A stretch of DNA of 43,940 nt, taken from contig QBLY01000023.1 of assembly GCA_003241895.1 (NCBI GenBank), forward strand, positions 1 through 43,940. Reading direction: 5' to 3'. Below the pieces are notes generated by a model, which saw nothing but the letters and a program-made list of their open reading frames with translations, ran no database searches and was not told the origin of the DNA. This document shows, in pieces, positions 36,683 through 43,830 of this stretch (position 1 is its first letter; each line of letters starts with the position of its first letter). The position numbers and the translations under genes were made by a program. The DNA comes from Lysobacteraceae bacterium. GTDB taxonomy: Bacteria; Pseudomonadota; Gammaproteobacteria; Xanthomonadales; Xanthomonadaceae.

Positions 36683-38962
36683 TCAGAAGGCGTAGCGCAC
36701 CACGAACTGGTACACGCGGCCGGCCGATTCGGTTTCGATCTCGTACTCGTCGTAGTCGCGGTTGACCTGGTCGTCGAAGGTGTTGAACTTGTCGAAAATC
36801 TCGTCCTTGGAGCTATCGAGCAGGTTCGACCCGGTCAGGCGCAGGGTCCACTGGTCGCCCAACCGCTTCTCGATGAACATCTCCAGGTCGCCGCCGTACG
36901 AAGTGACGATCTCCCTGCCCACGATGCGCCCGAACGCTTCGCCCTGCTTGCGGTAGCTGGCGCCGAACGAAGCGGCCAGCGTCGGCAGCTGCTGGATGAA
37001 ACCGGCGTTGAAGACGTGGTTGGACTGGTCGTTGAACTTGCGCTTGCCGAACAGGTCGTCGATCCCGGAGTCGAGCCAGGAGTAGTTGAAGAAGACACCG
37101 GTATTGTCCAAGCCCAGCGCCGTGAGCGGCGTGGACAGGTCGAGTTCGACGCCCCACACCTCGCCGTCGCCGGTGTTGCGCGGCTGCAGCACGAAGGTGC
37201 CCGGGCCTTCGTCACCCTCCACACCCGTATTGGCGATCTCGATCAGGTTGCTGATGTCGCGGTAGAAGGCGTTGACGCCCACCACGCCGCGGCTGCCCAG
37301 GCGACGCTCCCAGCCCAGGTCCAGGCCCCAGGCGGTCTCGGGCTCGAGGTCGGGGTTGCCCAGCAGGTCGTTGTCGCCCAGCTCGGCCAGGATCAGCGCC
37401 GGCGAGATCTGGTCGAAGCCGGGGCGACGCATGGTGCGCGCGACCGACGCGGTGATGCGTTGGGTATCGTCAAGGTTCCAGCGCAGGTGCGCCGACGGGA
37501 GGAACACGCCGTAGTCGTTCTCGGCCAGGGCGTCCGCCGGCGCCACGGTGAGATCGTTGATCTCCACGTCGGTCTGCTGGTAGCGCAGGCCCGCCTCCCA
37601 TTCCATCGCGCCCGACTCGCCGCTGAGCTTCGCGAACGGTTCGATGCGGGTTTCCGTGATGGTGTTCAGGCCACCGTCCAGCGGCAGGAACGGGCCGAAG
37701 GTGCCGGGGATCACCGGCGAAGGCGCCGGGGCATTGGGGATGGTGATGCGATTGCGGTCGGCGGTGATCGACGTGTCGCGGTCCTTGCGCGTGGCCTCCA
37801 CGCCCAAGCGCAGCTCGGCGCGACCAACGTCGCGCGTGTGGCGGACCTCACCCGACAGTTCGCGGTCCTGGATGTCCACGTAGGTGCGGTCGCCGGTGTA
37901 GCGGTCGGCTTCGGGGAACGGATTGGCGTCGCGCAGGTATTCGAACTCGTCCTCGAGCTCGTACTGCTCGTCGTCGATGCCGGCATAGCCCAGGCGCACG
38001 CGCGTTTCGCCGCCGGCGGCCTGCCATTCGTACTGGGCGCCGACCTGGTAATTGTCGGTGCGGATGTCGAGGTCGTTGACGTTCACGCTGATGAGGTTGG
38101 CCTGGGTCTCGATGCCGCCGCGATACTCCAGCGAGTCCTCGTCCTGCAGGCGATCGGTGCGCACGAAGAAAGCATTCAGGCCGAGCTTGCCCGGACCGAC
38201 GTCGGCGGTGTAGTCGAGGTTGAGCGAATAATCGTCTCCGCTGCGGGTGTCGGTCTGCACTTCGGTGTTGTCCAGCGTGCCGCCCGGCGCGTCGTAGCGT
38301 TCGCTGAACTTGAGCTTGGGGTTTCGCCGGCCCTGGGTGCTGGCGCCCACCAGCAATTGGCCACCCAGGGCTTCGCCGCCCCAGACCACGCCCAGCGTCG
38401 GCTCGATCTCGTCGTCCGGGTACAGGGCGGCGCCGGCGCGGATGTAGCCGCCGTCCAGTGAATAGCCGTCGCGCAGCACGATGTTGAGCGCACCGGCGAT
38501 GGCGTCACCGCTGCGGTCGGCCGAGGACGAGCGCACGATCTCGATGCGGTCCACCAGCTCGGCCGGGATGCGGTCCACGAAGAACGAGCGGTCGAAGCCG
38601 GCGCCGGGCACGCGGTTGCCGTTGATCAGGATCTGGGTATAGCCCGGGTCCAGGCCGCGCAGGCGCACGCCGTCGTATTCCAGGACGTCCGAGAGGAAGG
38701 CCACGCTGGGGACGCGCTTGAGCATGTCGCCGACGGTGACCGGCTCGAAGGCCTGGAAGAACTCCAGATCGTAGACCAGGGTGGCGGGCTCTTCGGTGCG
38801 GTCGCGGTAGATGATCTCGCCGCGCACTTCCAGCGCATCCAACTGGGCGGTGGAGCCGTCGGGCGAGGCAGACGCAGTGTCCTGCGCGGCGGCGGCGCCG
38901 GCGATGAGCAGGGCGCTGGCGATGGCGCGCGAAAGGCCGATGGCGAGAAGATTCTTTTTCAT
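36683..38962 (-). CDS. TonB-dependent outer-membrane receptor
   Basis: A 759-residue outer-membrane transporter. The signal peptide (MKKNLLAIGL to about residue 26) is followed by a plug domain (about 45-160) with VTVGDMLKRVPSVAFLSDV, GYTQILINGNRVPG and IEIVRSSSADRSGDAIAGAL. A 22-strand barrel follows and ends in the Phe-terminated VVRYAF, typical for BAM substrates. There is no N-terminal STN signalling extension. The ATG at 38962 has a GGGG-type ribosome site. It is divergent from a phytase-like lipoprotein gene, and both upstream regions carry a Pho-box-like element, so a phosphorylated organic ligand is a reasonable guess. Confidence 0.92.
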   Translation of the reverse strand: MKKNLLAIGLSRAIASALLIAGAAAAQDTASASPDGSTAQLDALEVRGEIIYRDRTEEPATLVYDLEFFQAFEPVTVGDMLKRVPSVAFLSDVLEYDGVRLRGLDPGYTQILINGNRVPGAGFDRSFFVDRIPAELVDRIEIVRSSSADRSGDAIAGALNIVLRDGYSLDGGYIRAGAALYPDDEIEPTLGVVWGGEALGGQLLVGASTQGRRNPKLKFSERYDAPGGTLDNTEVQTDTRSGDDYSLNLDYTADVGPGKLGLNAFFVRTDRLQDEDSLEYRGGIETQANLISVNVNDLDIRTDNYQVGAQYEWQAAGGETRVRLGYAGIDDEQYELEDEFEYLRDANPFPEADRYTGDRTYVDIQDRELSGEVRHTRDVGRAELRLGVEATRKDRDTSITADRNRITIPNAPAPSPVIPGTFGPFLPLDGGLNTITETRIEPFAKLSGESGAMEWEAGLRYQQTDVEINDLTVAPADALAENDYGVFLPSAHLRWNLDDTQRITASVARTMRRPGFDQISPALILAELGDNDLLGNPDLEPETAWGLDLGWERRLGSRGVVGVNAFYRDISNLIEIANTGVEGDEGPGTFVLQPRNTGDGEVWGVELDLSTPLTALGLDNTGVFFNYSWLDSGIDDLFGKRKFNDQSNHVFNAGFIQQLPTLAASFGASYRKQGEAFGRIVGREIVTSYGGDLEMFIEKRLGDQWTLRLTGSNLLDSSKDEIFDKFNTFDDQVNRDYDEYEIETESAGRVYQFVVRYAF

Positions 38963-38995: not shown

Positions 38996-39029
38996 TTTGT
39001 ACGCCCCAACCATGGAGGAATTATGACGG
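38996..39029 (-). promoter_or_regulatory. Pho-box-like element and -10 box for the TonB receptor
   Basis: On the minus strand CCGTCAT-AATT-CCTCCAT (39012-39029) matches the PhoB direct-repeat layout 7+4+7. The first half has 6 of 7 and the second 4 of 7 matches to CTGTCAT. Ten nucleotides later comes TACAAA (38996-39001). No conventional -35 is present, as expected for a PhoB-activated promoter. Confidence 0.45.
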
Positions 39030-39036
39030 CACCCCT

Positions 39037-39070
39037 CTGTCACAAGACCGACGCCAAAGGGCGATATAAA
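39037..39070 (+). promoter_or_regulatory. Pho-box-like element and -10 box for the phytase-like gene
   Basis: CTGTCAC-AAGA-CCGACGC (39037-39054) has a perfect first PhoB half-site and a weak second one (4 of 7). After exactly 10 nt comes TATAAA (39065-39070), the same geometry as the E. coli phoA promoter as I recall it. It lies 37 nt upstream of the lipoprotein ATG. Confidence 0.5.
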
Positions 39071-39107
39071 CGTCATGCCCTTCTTCCCCGCCACCACGGA
39101 GCCAACG

Positions 39108-40232
39108 ATGCGCGCAACGACCCTCGCCCTTTGCCTGATCCCGCTGCTGCTGGCCGGCTGCGCCAGCACGCCGGACCGCGAGCCCGACGAGGTCGAAGGT
39201 GCGGACCCGCTGCTCAGTGCGTCGGGCGAAGCGCACGTCACGGTGGCCGAGGCCTTCGTCACCACGCTCACGCCCAAGGACAACATCGACTCGCCCGCCG
39301 CCTGGCGCGCGCCCGACGGCAAGACCTGGCTGTTCGCCACCGCCAAGGAAGGCAAGGGCCTGGTGGTCTACGACGGCGACACCGGCGCCACCCTGCGCAC
39401 GGTCGGCACCGAAGGCCGCCGCCCCGGGCAGTTCAAGCGAGCCAATGGCGTTGCGGTGAGCGGCAACCATCTGTTCGTGGTGGAGCGCGACAACCAGCGC
39501 GTGCAGGTGCTTTCGCTGCCGTCGCTGGCCACCGTGGCCACGTTCGGCGAGGCCGAGCTCAAGAAGCCCTACGGCTTGTTCATCCGCGAACACGCTTCGG
39601 GTGAACTTGAAGTGCTGGTGACCGACGCCTACATGATCGGCGAGGACGCCAAGGGCGACGACATCCCGCCCCCACTGGCCGAACTGGATCGCCGCGTGCA
39701 GCGTTACCTCGTGCACACCGACGGGGACGCCGTGTCGGCCGTGAGCAGCGGCGCGTTCGGCGACACCACGGAAGCAGGCGCCATCCGCGTGCCGGAATCG
39801 ATCTGGGGCGACGTCGCCAACGATCGCCTGCTGATCGCCGAGGAAGACGTGGCCACCGGCACGGCCTACCGCGAGTATTCAATGGCCGGCGTGTTCCGCG
39901 GCAAGACCCTGGGCCTGGGCCGCTTCAAGGCGCAGGCCGAAGGCGTCACGCTGTGGTCCTGCCCGGACGGCAGCGGCTATTGGCTGACCACCGACCAGTT
40001 CAAGGACCTGAGCCTGTTCCATGTCTTCGACCGCCAGTCGCTCGCGCACCTGGGCGCGTTCGCCGGCAAGGCCGTGGCAAACACCGACGGCGTGTGGCTG
40101 CAGCAGGCGGGCACCGGGCGCTTCCCCCAAGGGGTGTTCTACGCCGTGCACGACGACATGGCGGTCGGCGCGTTCGACTGGCGCGACATCGCGGCGGCGC
40201 TGAAACTCCGCGTCACGTGTGGGGGCGCTTGA
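39108..40232 (+). CDS. Phytase-like beta-propeller lipoprotein
   Basis: A 374-residue predicted lipoprotein (lipobox LLLAGC, Cys near residue 17) that aligns along its length with beta-propeller phytases. Corresponding segments are NIDSPAAWRAPDGKTWLF, KPYGLFIREHASGELEVLVT, DRLLIAEEDVATG, AEGVTLWSCPDGSGYWLTT and ANTDGVWLQ followed by FPQGVFYAVHDD. The phytase hallmark NNVDxR is not kept (RANGVAV at that place) and DDPAxW reads DSPAAW, so calcium sites and activity may differ. The ATG at 39108 has GGAG 6 nt upstream. The divergent TonB receptor gene supports a nutrient-scavenging role. Confidence 0.75.
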   Translation: MRATTLALCLIPLLLAGCASTPDREPDEVEGADPLLSASGEAHVTVAEAFVTTLTPKDNIDSPAAWRAPDGKTWLFATAKEGKGLVVYDGDTGATLRTVGTEGRRPGQFKRANGVAVSGNHLFVVERDNQRVQVLSLPSLATVATFGEAELKKPYGLFIREHASGELEVLVTDAYMIGEDAKGDDIPPPLAELDRRVQRYLVHTDGDAVSAVSSGAFGDTTEAGAIRVPESIWGDVANDRLLIAEEDVATGTAYREYSMAGVFRGKTLGLGRFKAQAEGVTLWSCPDGSGYWLTTDQFKDLSLFHVFDRQSLAHLGAFAGKAVANTDGVWLQQAGTGRFPQGVFYAVHDDMAVGAFDWRDIAAALKLRVTCGGA

Positions 40233-40294: not shown

Positions 40295-41344
40295 TCACCC
40301 CAGCACGCGCAGAATGTCGTCAAGCAGCGCCGCGGCGGTAACTTCGGCGCCAGCGCCGGGCCCCTGGATCTGCAGGGGCCGGTCGCGGTAGCGGCTGCTC
40401 CAGATGGCGATGCGGTTGTCGCAGCCGCGGCCGACGGCGATCGGGTCGTCGGGCGCCAACGCTTCCAGGCCGATGCGCGCCCCGGCCGCATCCAGCCGCG
40501 CCACGTAGCGCAGCACCTTGCCGTCGCGCGCGGTGCGCGCGGCGCGTTCGGCCAGCGGGCCGTCGAGTGAGGTGAGCGCCTGGGCAAGATTTTCGATGGT
40601 TGCGGATTCGATGGCGGGCGTCAGCAGCGAGTCCACCCTCACTTCAGCGTCTTCCAGCGCGTAGCCGGCGGTGCGCGCCAGGATCAGCAGCTTGCGCTTC
40701 ACGTCCTCGCCCGACAGGTCCACGCGTGGGTCGGGCTCGGCGTAGCCCTGGGCCACCGCCGACAGCACGCGCTGTGAAAACAACTCACTGCCGTCGTAGC
40801 CGTCGAACAGCCAGGCCAGCGTGCCCGACAGCACGCCCACGATGGCGCCGATGCGGTCGCCGCCCGCGCGCAGTTCGCGCACGGTGCGCAGCACCGGCAG
40901 TCCGGCGCCTACGGTGGCCGCGTCGCCGTAATGGCGGCCTTCGGTGGCCAGGCTGCGGATCTCGTGTTGGCGCAGCAGCGGCCCGCCGAGCCCGAGCTTG
41001 TTGGCGCTCACCACGTTCAGGCCCTGGCGCAGCCAGCGTGGGTGCCACGCGGCCAGTTCGGCGCTGGCGGTGGCGTCCACCACGATGTCGCCGGCGCGCA
41101 GCGCGTCGGGCAGCGCGCCGGAGCCATCGTGCGAGTCGCCGCCGGACCAACTCCCGGCCAGCGCCAGGCCGTCGGCACCCAGCCAGCGCCGGCGCGAATT
41201 GGCGGCCAGGCACAGCTGCAGGCGCGGATGCTGCAGCGACTGCAGGCGCACAAGCAGTGCGCGTCCGACGGTGCCTACGCCCAGCAGGGCCACGCGCCGG
41301 ACGCCCGCCTGCTGCCCCGGCAAGGCCAGCGGCAGCACGCTCAT
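40295..41344 (-). CDS. Homoserine dehydrogenase, short form
   Basis: NAD(P)-dependent reduction of aspartate semialdehyde to homoserine. The 349-residue protein has the Rossmann motif RRVALLGVGTVGRALLVRL, VVDATASAELAAW, VVSANKLGLGG, the family motif YGDAATVGAGLPVLRTVREL, GVLSGTLAWLF and the catalytic region AEPDPRVDLSGEDVKRKLLIL. The C-terminus stops without the ACT domain of typical Hom proteins and there is no aspartokinase fusion. The start at 41344 overlaps the metB stop (ATGA), so it is the last gene of a methionine operon. Confidence 0.93.
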   Translation of the reverse strand: MSVLPLALPGQQAGVRRVALLGVGTVGRALLVRLQSLQHPRLQLCLAANSRRRWLGADGLALAGSWSGGDSHDGSGALPDALRAGDIVVDATASAELAAWHPRWLRQGLNVVSANKLGLGGPLLRQHEIRSLATEGRHYGDAATVGAGLPVLRTVRELRAGGDRIGAIVGVLSGTLAWLFDGYDGSELFSQRVLSAVAQGYAEPDPRVDLSGEDVKRKLLILARTAGYALEDAEVRVDSLLTPAIESATIENLAQALTSLDGPLAERAARTARDGKVLRYVARLDAAGARIGLEALAPDDPIAVGRGCDNRIAIWSSRYRDRPLQIQGPGAGAEVTAAALLDDILRVLG

Positions 41345-42534
41345 TTCGCCAGCTCGCTGGCGGCGGGCGAGGAAACCTGCAGCGCGCGGTCCAGCGCGGC
41401 CGAGATATCGGCCTCCAGGTCCTCCAGCGCCTCGATGCCTACCGACAGGCGCAGCAGCCCTTCGCCGATGCCCGCCACTCGGCGCGCCTCGTCCGACATG
41501 GCGGCATGGGTCATCGTGGCCGGATGCGCCACCAGGCTCTCCACGCCGCCCAGGGATTCGGCCAGGGTGAAGTGCTCGAGCCCGTCGAGGAAGGCGCGGA
41601 CCGCAGGCAGGCCGCCGGCCAGGTCGAACGAGATCATGGCGCCGAATCCGCGCTGCTGGCGGGCGGCCAGCGCATGGCCCGGATGGGTCGGGAGGCCGGG
41701 GTAGTGCACCGCCGACAGCGCGGGATGGCGCTGCAGCCGCTCCGCCAGGGCCGAGGCATTCTCCTGGTGCACGCGCAGGCGCGCATCCAGCGTGCGCAGG
41801 CCGCGCAGGGTGAGGAAGCTGTCGAAGGGCGAGCCGGTCAGGCCCAGCGCATTGGCCCACCAGGCAAGCGATTCGTTGAGCGCCGCGTCGCGCGACACCA
41901 CCGCCCCGCCCACCACGTCGCTGTGGCCGTTGATGTACTTGGTGGTGGAGTGCAGCACCAGGTCGGCGCCGAACTCGATCGGCGTCTGCAGCGCCGGCGA
42001 AAGGAAGGTGTTGTCCACCAGGGCCAGCGCGCCGGCCTGGTGCGCGGCTTCGATCACATGGTGCAGGTCGGTGATGCGCAGCAGCGGGTTGGACGGGGTT
42101 TCGATCCACACCAGCCTGGTCGGCTGCGACAGCGCCGCCGCCAGCGCGATCGGATCGGCCAGGTTGGCCAGCACCAGCTCGAAGCGGCCCTTGCGCGCCA
42201 GCACATCGAACAGGCGCCAGCTGCCGCCGTAGCAGTCGTGCGTCACCACCAGGCGGTCGCCTGGCTGCAGCAGCGCCTCCAGCACCAGGGTGATCGCCGC
42301 CATGCCGGTGGCGGTGACCACGGCGCCGGCGCCGCCTTCAAGCTCCGCCAGCGCATCCGCCAGTTGGTCGCGGGTTGGGTTGCCGCTGCGGGTGTAGTCG
42401 TACTTCCGCTTCTGGCCGAAACCGGCGAAGCTGAAGTTGCTCGACAGCACCAGCGGCGGCGTGACGGCGCCAAAGGCCGTGTCGGCGTCGATGCCGGCGC
42501 GCACGGCGGCGGTGGCGGGGCAGCGCGCGCTCAT
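41341..42534 (-). CDS. metB: Cystathionine gamma-synthase / O-succinylhomoserine sulfhydrylase family PLP enzyme
   Basis: A 397-residue Cys/Met-metabolism PLP enzyme. It shows YDYTRSGNPTRDQLADALAE, ATGMAAITLVLEAL, WIETPSNPLLRITDL, VDNTFLSPALQTPIEFGADL, the PLP lysine motif HSTTKYINGHSDVVGG and SLGGVESLVAHPATMTHAAM. A metZ-type direct sulfhydrylation activity cannot be excluded by sequence alone. It overlaps metX at its start and hom at its end, both by ATGA. Confidence 0.9.
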   Translation of the reverse strand: MSARCPATAAVRAGIDADTAFGAVTPPLVLSSNFSFAGFGQKRKYDYTRSGNPTRDQLADALAELEGGAGAVVTATGMAAITLVLEALLQPGDRLVVTHDCYGGSWRLFDVLARKGRFELVLANLADPIALAAALSQPTRLVWIETPSNPLLRITDLHHVIEAAHQAGALALVDNTFLSPALQTPIEFGADLVLHSTTKYINGHSDVVGGAVVSRDAALNESLAWWANALGLTGSPFDSFLTLRGLRTLDARLRVHQENASALAERLQRHPALSAVHYPGLPTHPGHALAARQQRGFGAMISFDLAGGLPAVRAFLDGLEHFTLAESLGGVESLVAHPATMTHAAMSDEARRVAGIGEGLLRLSVGIEALEDLEADISAALDRALQVSSPAASELAK

Positions 42535-43583
42535 GCCGCACCTCCGGTACACGCCGCCAAGGCCTCGCGAAGCAGCGCGTCCACGGCGACCTCTTCTTTC
42601 AGGAACGCGTCGTGGCCGAAACGCGAGCGCAGCACGCACAGCCGCGACGGACCGCCGAGCGATTCCACCAGGGCCTGCAGGTCCGACAGCGGCACCAGCC
42701 GGTCTTGCTCGATGGCGACCACGGTGGTGGGCACGCGTACGTCGGCCGGGTCCACGCGGTGCAGGTCGATGGACTCGGACAGGCGCAGGAAGGCGGTGCT
42801 GGTCCAGCGCGCCGCATAGCGGCGGCCGCAGCTTTCCAGGTAGTCCTGCGCGGCGCAGCGGGCGACGCCGCCGTCAAGCACGGCGGGCGCATCGAAACGG
42901 TCGGCGAACTCCTCCGGAGTGCGGTAGCTCAGCATCGCCCACTGGCGCGCCAACGCCAGGCCCTGGCTGACGCCGCCCTCGCTGCGGCCCAGCGCCACGC
43001 ACTGCCGCTGGAGTGCGCGCCAGGCGCTGGCGTAGGGGTGCGGCCGGTGGGCGCCGGAGATCGCGACCAGGCGGTCCAGGCGCGCGCCGTGGCGGGCGGC
43101 GAACTGCAGGCCCACCATGGCCCCGTAGGACGCCCCCACGAAAGCGGCGACGCGATCCACACCGAGGCGATCGAGCACGCAAGCCAGCACGTCGGCCTGG
43201 TCGGCACTGTCGATCGGGGCGTCCAGGCCGCCGTCGGCGCCCAGCCAATCGATGGCCAGTACGCGCAGGCGGCGGGTGTCGATGGCGCGGCCCGGGCCCA
43301 CCTGGGCTTCCCACCAGCCCGCCTCGGCGTTGCCCGGGCCGGCGGCGACGTGGCGGTTGGCGGAGATGCCGCCCGCGACCACCACCAGCGGCGCGTCCAC
43401 CGGACCCAGCCACTCCCCGCGCACCACGACGCTGCGGATGCCGGCATGCCGCAGCGGCAGCTGCAGGTCCAGCACGAAGCGCCGCGCGTGCCGCGCCGGC
43501 ATCGACGCGCCGGCGTCGTAAGCGCAGGCGTCGGCCGCGTTGGCAGCAAGGGCTTCATGGGCGGGGGAAGGGGTGAGGCTCAT
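42531..43583 (-). CDS. metX: Homoserine O-acyltransferase (MetX family, probably O-succinyltransferase)
   Basis: An alpha/beta-hydrolase acyltransferase that activates homoserine for methionine synthesis. The 350-residue protein has VVVAGGISANRHVA, WLGADGGLD, the nucleophile elbow FVGASYGAMVGLQFAARHG, the Asp region VPTTVVAIEQDRLVPL and the catalytic His in SRFGHDAFLKE. Xanthomonad MetX enzymes of this kind are known to use succinyl-CoA; I apply that by relatedness. The ATG at 43583 has AGGAG 8 nt upstream. The frame is open further upstream, but that stretch is the riboswitch leader. It heads the metX-metB-hom operon. Confidence 0.92.
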   Translation of the reverse strand: MSLTPSPAHEALAANAADACAYDAGASMPARHARRFVLDLQLPLRHAGIRSVVVRGEWLGPVDAPLVVVAGGISANRHVAAGPGNAEAGWWEAQVGPGRAIDTRRLRVLAIDWLGADGGLDAPIDSADQADVLACVLDRLGVDRVAAFVGASYGAMVGLQFAARHGARLDRLVAISGAHRPHPYASAWRALQRQCVALGRSEGGVSQGLALARQWAMLSYRTPEEFADRFDAPAVLDGGVARCAAQDYLESCGRRYAARWTSTAFLRLSESIDLHRVDPADVRVPTTVVAIEQDRLVPLSDLQALVESLGGPSRLCVLRSRFGHDAFLKEEVAVDALLREALAACTGGAA

Positions 43584-43673
43584 CGCACGGCTCCTGGTGG
43601 GCGTTGGGCCCAGCGAGGTTCCTGCGGTCAAAAGCCGGCGTCGAATGCCCCCGGTGTTTCGGGAAGCGATACG

Positions 43674-43789
43674 ACCCATCTCTCGGCGGACAGATGTCCC
43701 CGCAGGAATTGGCACCTTCATGCAGGATTGCTCCTGCATGGGTTGCCCCGGCGTCTTCGGGCCTATCCCCTCAGCCGGTCTCGATGGGT
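43674..43789 (-). ncRNA. SAM-I (S-box) riboswitch aptamer upstream of metX
   Basis: On the minus strand the leader folds as an S-box. P1 pairs ACCCATC (43783-43789) with GATGGGT (43674-43680). P2 has CCGGC (43774-43778) with GCCGG (43748-43752), enclosing TGAGGGGATAGGCCCGAAGA. P3 is a perfect 9-bp stem with a GCAA tetraloop (43719-43740). The conserved AAGGTGCCAATTCCTGC covers 43703-43719, P4 covers 43686-43703, and GAGA closes the junction. The aptamer should bind S-adenosylmethionine and repress the metX operon. The 90 nt between P1 and the ATG lack a clear T-tract terminator, so control at translation is possible. Confidence 0.92.
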
Positions 43790-43801
43790 GTTGCGAGGCC
43801 A

Positions 43802-43830
43802 AGACTGCCCCGGTTTCCGACGCATGTCAA
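43802..43830 (-). promoter_or_regulatory. Promoter of the metX operon
   Basis: A perfect -35 TTGACA (43825-43830) and a weak -10 CAGTCT (43802-43807) are separated by 17 nt on the minus strand. They place the transcript start just before the SAM-I aptamer. The space 43584-43909 has no gene; it holds the riboswitch, this promoter and the divergent -10 box. Confidence 0.55.

Follow-up and report, generated by a model that had tools for sequence, protein, structure and literature searches.

Phytate is a large phosphorus store of soil and plants. In Escherichia coli, the Pho box of the pstS and phoA type is a 7+4+7 direct repeat with a TGTCA core, followed by a -10 box 10 nt downstream. A neighbourhood of genes for a beta-propeller phytase (BPP) and a TonB-dependent receptor (TBDT) was reportedly noted by Lim et al. 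in 2007, and PhyA of Xanthomonas oryzae pv. oryzae is said to have been described by Chatterjee et al. in 2003. According to the accessible parts of the papers, TBDT/phytase neighbourhoods and phosphate-responsive pairs are already known in other groups: a TBDT gene adjoins a phytase gene in Citromicrobium (PMC3400609), phosphate depletion induces the phytase and TBDT pair Fjoh_1367/Fjoh_1368 of Flavobacterium johnsoniae (PMC8115612), and the PhoB regulon of Caulobacter crescentus includes PhoB-controlled TBDTs and a phytase (PMC11208175). In Xanthomonas, again as far as the available text goes, PhyA of X. oryzae pv. oryzae is a 373-aa BPP (via PMC5866894, PMC5735085, PMC9403785), and XanT/XanP are a TBDT and a phosphoesterase serving uptake of a phosphorylated compound, with xanT/xanP induced by sucrose (PMC12807533). 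In a literature search with subscription journals largely outside its scope, no paper among the matches listed dealt with a divergent TBDT/phytase pair carrying Pho boxes in Xanthomonadaceae; PMC9414882, PMC11677812, PMC7137328, PMC5439949 and PMC6213323 contributed no decisive point.

Here we analysed such a pair in the window, the whole 43,940-nt stretch of DNA, which forms contig C15 in a genome of 3.1 Mb. A plasmid origin was rejected, as the plasmid collection searched gave no match. To the right of the phytase-like gene, at 40295-43802 on the minus strand, lie genes for ordinary biosynthesis, a homoserine dehydrogenase and a MetX-like homoserine O-succinyltransferase.

Two back-to-back promoters in a 145-nt spacer

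The receptor gene (36683..38962, minus strand, 759 aa) and the phytase-like lipoprotein gene (39108..40232, plus strand, 374 aa) diverge from a spacer of 145 nt, in which two promoters at 38996-39070 point in opposite directions, to the receptor on the left and the lipoprotein on the right. On the minus strand, the TBDT promoter runs from 39029 down to 38996, with the box CCGTCAT-AATT-CCTCCAT (39012..39029), 10 nt and the -10-like box TACAAA (38996..39001; TAnAnn in relatives), which is 33 nt 5' of the receptor ATG. On the plus strand, the phytase promoter (39037-39070) consists of the box CTGTCAC-AAGA-CCGACGC (39037..39054), 10 nt and the -10-like box TATAAA (39065..39070; TAnAAn in relatives). 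Letters, coordinates and spacing thus agree with an earlier note on this DNA, which had claimed 7+4+7 elements with first halves CCGTCAT and CTGTCAC on both strands, each exactly 10 nt from its -10 box. At both sites the two 7-bp half-sites are spaced by 11 bp and the second half is weak. The match of 4/7 that had been claimed for both second halves holds against CTGTCAT on the TBDT side, but the phytase side reaches 3/7, and 4/7 only if the final C of CTGTCAC is counted as a match.

The earlier note had proposed scoring both sites with a matrix from pst boxes of the family. The half-site matrix was built from pstS upstream regions only, those of 30 relatives and the genome's own; 24 of these 31 regions gave distinct boxes, four repeats and three boxes with fewer than 10/14 consensus letters being dropped. 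A composite score was formed by adding generic weights for a -10 box, always placed 10 nt from the box. The phytase-side site scored 16.5 and the TBDT-side site 14.0, ranking first and second among ~87,800 composite positions when the two strands of the window are counted together (third, 12.9). By box score alone, seven window positions equalled or exceeded the phytase-side site and six the TBDT-side site, the sites themselves included, so the box alone is less special and a correctly spaced -10 box counts. When the spacer was shuffled 2000 times with dinucleotides preserved, no shuffle reached 16.5 on the plus strand, two reached 14.0 on the minus strand, and none did both. A degenerate composite pattern, composed after the relatives' sites had been seen, found just these two places at one mismatch in the 3.1-Mb genome; counts at two or three mismatches were uninformative, with nine matches at up to two mismatches and no excess over the reversed control (eight). 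The two boxes are confirmed, at the level of sequence, as Pho-type promoter elements, more than chance matches.

The genome encodes PhoB (G000:C21:23674-24348, 369.8 bits against a cut-off of 296.2). Its own pstS is preceded by a box of the same kind, CTGTCAT-GCCC-TTGTCAT, and CTGTCAC-GACC-CGGTCAC lies ~50 nt 5' of the PhoB match. When the 700 nt before the Plug was searched for the genome's 15 Plug-bearing receptors, such a site was found only here (14.0) and for one receptor on contig C49 (15.5); the other 13 scored at most 2.7 within this distance, from which promoters farther upstream would escape. The C49 receptor (Plug at G000:C49 83522-83797) looks Oar-like, and its upstream Pho-type promoter reads TTGTCACCTGAATGACAT, 10 nt and TAGCGT (914-947 of the fetched locus L176).

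Conservation and layout in the family

The phytase-like protein was matched in 194 of the 247 genomes of the family. A first set of 80 loci was fetched together with the protein's alignment. An orthologous, divergent receptor, 46-89% identical, was present in 43 of them, including Arenimonas, Luteimonas, Lysobacter, Thermomonas, Pseudoxanthomonas and Stenotrophomonas records, and another TBDT hit in 34, so that 77/80 loci have some TBDT hit; the remaining three (L070, L081, L084) gave none in the stretch covered. One locus, L082, is titled Tolypothrix, a cyanobacterium, and carries a xanthomonad-type locus with a receptor 52% identical; it is probably a contaminant contig.

Scored over the entire locus (6-11 kb), the top composite site falls in the spacer in 39/43 divergent loci on the plus strand and in 40/43 on the minus strand, the top site lying elsewhere in four and three, respectively; a few loci (e.g. 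L079, L108, L139) have their top minus site in a different register. The 43 loci cannot be counted as independent: the initial 44 loci of the spacing test below form 24 sequence clusters. The phytase-side site scored at least 10 in 35/43 loci. A further 42 non-duplicate divergent loci were taken from other genomes in batches of 20 and 22. Their spacers contained a TBDT-side site of at least 10 in 20/20 and 21/22 loci (41/42) and a phytase-side site in 13/20 and 17/22 (30/42); for shuffled first-set spacers the rates were ~1% and 0.5%. Both elements are therefore kept in orthologous spacers, the comparison on which the earlier note had staked its proposal. Of 40 fetched receptors of the group, 10 had no phytase hit within the ~700 nt covered upstream, and of 80 phytase-like loci outside the first set, 14 had no TBDT hit within the ~900 nt covered upstream.

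Read by the most frequent letter at each position, the TBDT-side box of relatives is CTGTCAT-nTTT-CCGCCAT. The second half-site is mostly CCGCCAT, and the C at its fourth position, found in 31/39 distinct sites, is kept although the matrix penalises it. Since sites were picked by score, per-position conservation is inflated in the half-sites, position 15 excepted. On the phytase side, 10 of 32 distinct sites carry an inverted core (GAC for GTC) in the first half-site, so that PhoB may be arranged there in some way other than a plain direct repeat. Sites of this side in L096, L120, L121, L123 and L135 have TGACA in the first half-site, which is TGTCA on the opposite strand.

The two boxes of the window are separated by 39030-39036, and the gap in the 43 first-set loci is near 6, 16, 28, 39, 50 bp and onward. 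A phasing of ~6 modulo 11 bp was proposed from the first-set loci and then tested on held-out loci. The test kept 61 of 85 non-duplicate rows, with one median value per cluster; rows were dropped when either site scored below 10, when sites overlapped (negative gap), as duplicates, and for L148 (best gap 11 nt). All 61 loci, as 22 sequence clusters, gave R 0.57 and phase 6.0 (p 0.0008). The first held-out batch (12 loci, unclustered) gave R 0.49 and phase 5.7 (p 0.057), and the held-out loci alone (29 in 11 clusters) were not significant (R 0.41, phase 6.4, p 0.15). An ~11-bp phasing of the two boxes is thus suggestive, not confirmed.

Loci of Xanthomonas and of some Pseudoxanthomonas and Stenotrophomonas display another layout, in which the phytase-like gene follows, in the same orientation, the gene of a different receptor; in the loci measured, this receptor is 23-27% identical to the window receptor across a section of the barrel. 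Among these 34 loci, many of them close relatives, 29 have a long receptor frame, with the top plus site at its upstream end in 28; in the remaining five, the top site scores 19.5-20.8 at a comparable position in three and no more than 8.1 in two.

The receptor and the phytase-like lipoprotein

The receptor matches Pfam PF07715, PF00593 and PF14905 above cut-off, with Plug (51 bits) and beta-barrel (120 bits) and no N-terminal signalling (STN) domain in its Pfam list. It scored 191 bits against TIGR01782, under the cut-off of 310. Among solved structures, its sequence matches the colicin I receptor at E 3.7e-16 and BtuB at a best E of 2.8e-06, with no match to a receptor for a phosphorus ligand.

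For the lipoprotein, the start at 39075 in the open reading frame list was rejected because it lies only 5 nt past the -10 box. The likely start is ATG 39108, with a probable ribosome-binding GGAG at 39098..39101 and a lipobox ending at C18, a residue invariant across 48 aligned sequences. The PF02333 score is low, 29.7 bits against a cut-off of 21, and in a six-frame search was 20.2, below that cut-off. Its structure model (pLDDT 91) has the phytase propeller fold, and the best structural matches in Foldseek are Bacillus phytases. D61, K80, E230, E246, E278 and D327 align with Bacillus D55, K76, E211, E227, E260 and D314, which are metal and phosphate ligands, and all six are invariant in the 48 sequences; S62 stands in place of Bacillus D56. 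Of the BPP motifs DDPA[I/V]W and NN[V/I]D[I/L/V]R given in the available part of PMC4017775, the first reads D61-S62-P63-A64-A65-W66, keeping the first D, P, A and W with S for the second D. The other is absent from the whole protein; its likely counterpart reads RANGVAV. Fold and the six active-site residues support the view of the lipoprotein as a predicted divergent relative of beta-propeller phytases. An assignment as an NHL protein, suggested by top sequence hits to the NHL domains of Thin and TRIM71, was set aside because structural comparison puts phytases first, with NHL propellers close behind.

In three of three genomes examined of the Xanthomonas genus group, the only PF02333 place belongs to the lipoprotein's family, and the X. 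vasicola relative (L112) has 373 aa with the start chosen for it. PhyA of X. oryzae probably belongs to this family. Elsewhere, three genus relatives (G103:C1, G076:C23, G164:C26) have a second phytase-like copy, 53-58% identical, ~4.5-6.6 kb off. Three genomes (G010, G063, G072) have two adjacent PF02333 stretches (~100-120 and 305-315 bits) in one frame of ~700-770 aa; these two-domain phytases stand apart from the lipoprotein's family.

A probable phosphate-scavenging locus among known systems

Since most relatives examined keep both boxes, the locus is very probably a phosphate-scavenging one, of a general type already known. The boxes, their geometry, their conservation and the six active-site residues are sequence-based, and the phytase fold comes from a predicted model. 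From these we infer PhoB binding and regulation, the ligand, activity and location of the products, and cooperation between receptor and lipoprotein. Low phosphate would activate PhoR and PhoB, and phosphorylated PhoB would bind both boxes and bring RNA polymerase to the -10 element that lies 10 nt from each. Both genes would then be switched on, the TBDT leftward and an outer-membrane phytase-like lipoprotein rightward. The lipoprotein probably dephosphorylates phytate or lower inositol phosphates. What the receptor takes up is probably the ligand with its phosphates or a product that has lost some of them, and released phosphate would enter via the Pst system. We consider it likely that the locus belongs to the Pho regulon in this way, PhoB switching on receptor and lipoprotein for phytate or inositol phosphate use. 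The dedicated PhoB-controlled organophosphate uptake locus that the earlier note had suggested thus finds support in the conserved boxes, the fit to the pstS matrix, the encoded PhoB and the phytase-type lipoprotein.

Box scores that are not unique in the window, and genome matches at up to two mismatches no commoner than in the reversed control, would suit chance matches in a GC-rich spacer; shuffles and conservation speak against this, and we rejected it as having next to no chance. The boxes might be real and yet serve a different response regulator of the OmpR/PhoB type, one that binds similar direct repeats and answers to another signal. Regulators of this family commonly use direct repeats of about 10-11 bp, and in this genome the PhoB model finds, in addition to PhoB, at least four more matches of nearly full length. 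However, the matrix came from pstS promoters only, yet ranked these sites first and second, and a phytase-like product fits phosphate; another regulator seems very unlikely.

Turning to the products, the receptor could import something else, e.g. a metal chelate or other phosphoester, with phosphate control secondary, as its matches to the colicin I receptor and BtuB might suggest; against the conserved Pho-type control elements on both sides, we regard this as unlikely. It is distinctly improbable that the lipoprotein is a non-enzyme binding cap using a phytase fold for ligand capture, in the manner of SusD or BtuG. A cap would fit a lipobox protein that shares its locus with a TBDT hit in 77/80 first-set loci, S62 for D56 and a missing BPP motif. 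Against it, none of the six metal- and phosphate-binding residues varies, and PhyA, which is probably the Xanthomonas homologue, is reported in the available text to aid growth on phytate (PMC5866894, PMC5735085, PMC9403785). BtuG2 reached only Foldseek rank 46 (TM 0.36), and the lipoprotein matched just PF02333 and NHL (E 0.001), no SusD family. Quite unlikely, too, is a catalytic phytase lid on the TBDT that trims phytate and hands on inositol phosphates, with both promoters forming one helically phased PhoB operator (gap ~6 modulo 11 bp); if true, the SusD/BtuG-like cap would itself be the enzyme.

Should the preferred working, a PhoB-controlled receptor and phytase-like lipoprotein, be true, it would provide a testable phosphate-controlled pair in environmental Xanthomonadaceae (Arenimonas, Lysobacter, others), tie a receptor group to a phosphorus ligand, not iron, and supply a Pho-box model for the family.

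Compared with the E. coli Pho box, the window has the same 7+4+7 repeat, TGTCA core and 10 nt to the -10 box, but a degenerate second half-site, mostly CCGCCAT on the relatives' TBDT side. XanT/XanP likewise pair a TBDT with a phosphoesterase-type partner; in the accessible description, however, XanP is a 2H phosphoesterase, induction is by sucrose and the ligand differs. Xanthomonas (PhyA-type) loci differ by their TBDT-then-phytase layout. As in Citromicrobium, the neighbourhood suggests phytate as TBDT ligand, regulation not being among the features described in the part available. The Caulobacter PhoB regulon shares TBDT and phytase, and a shared divergent spacer is not among the features in its accessible text. 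Fjoh_1367/Fjoh_1368 resemble the window pair in placing a PF02333 protein of the outer membrane beside a TBDT, both being phosphate-responsive there according to the available text; unlike that Bacteroidetes pair, the two genes of the window diverge from a spacer with two Pho-type boxes set back to back.
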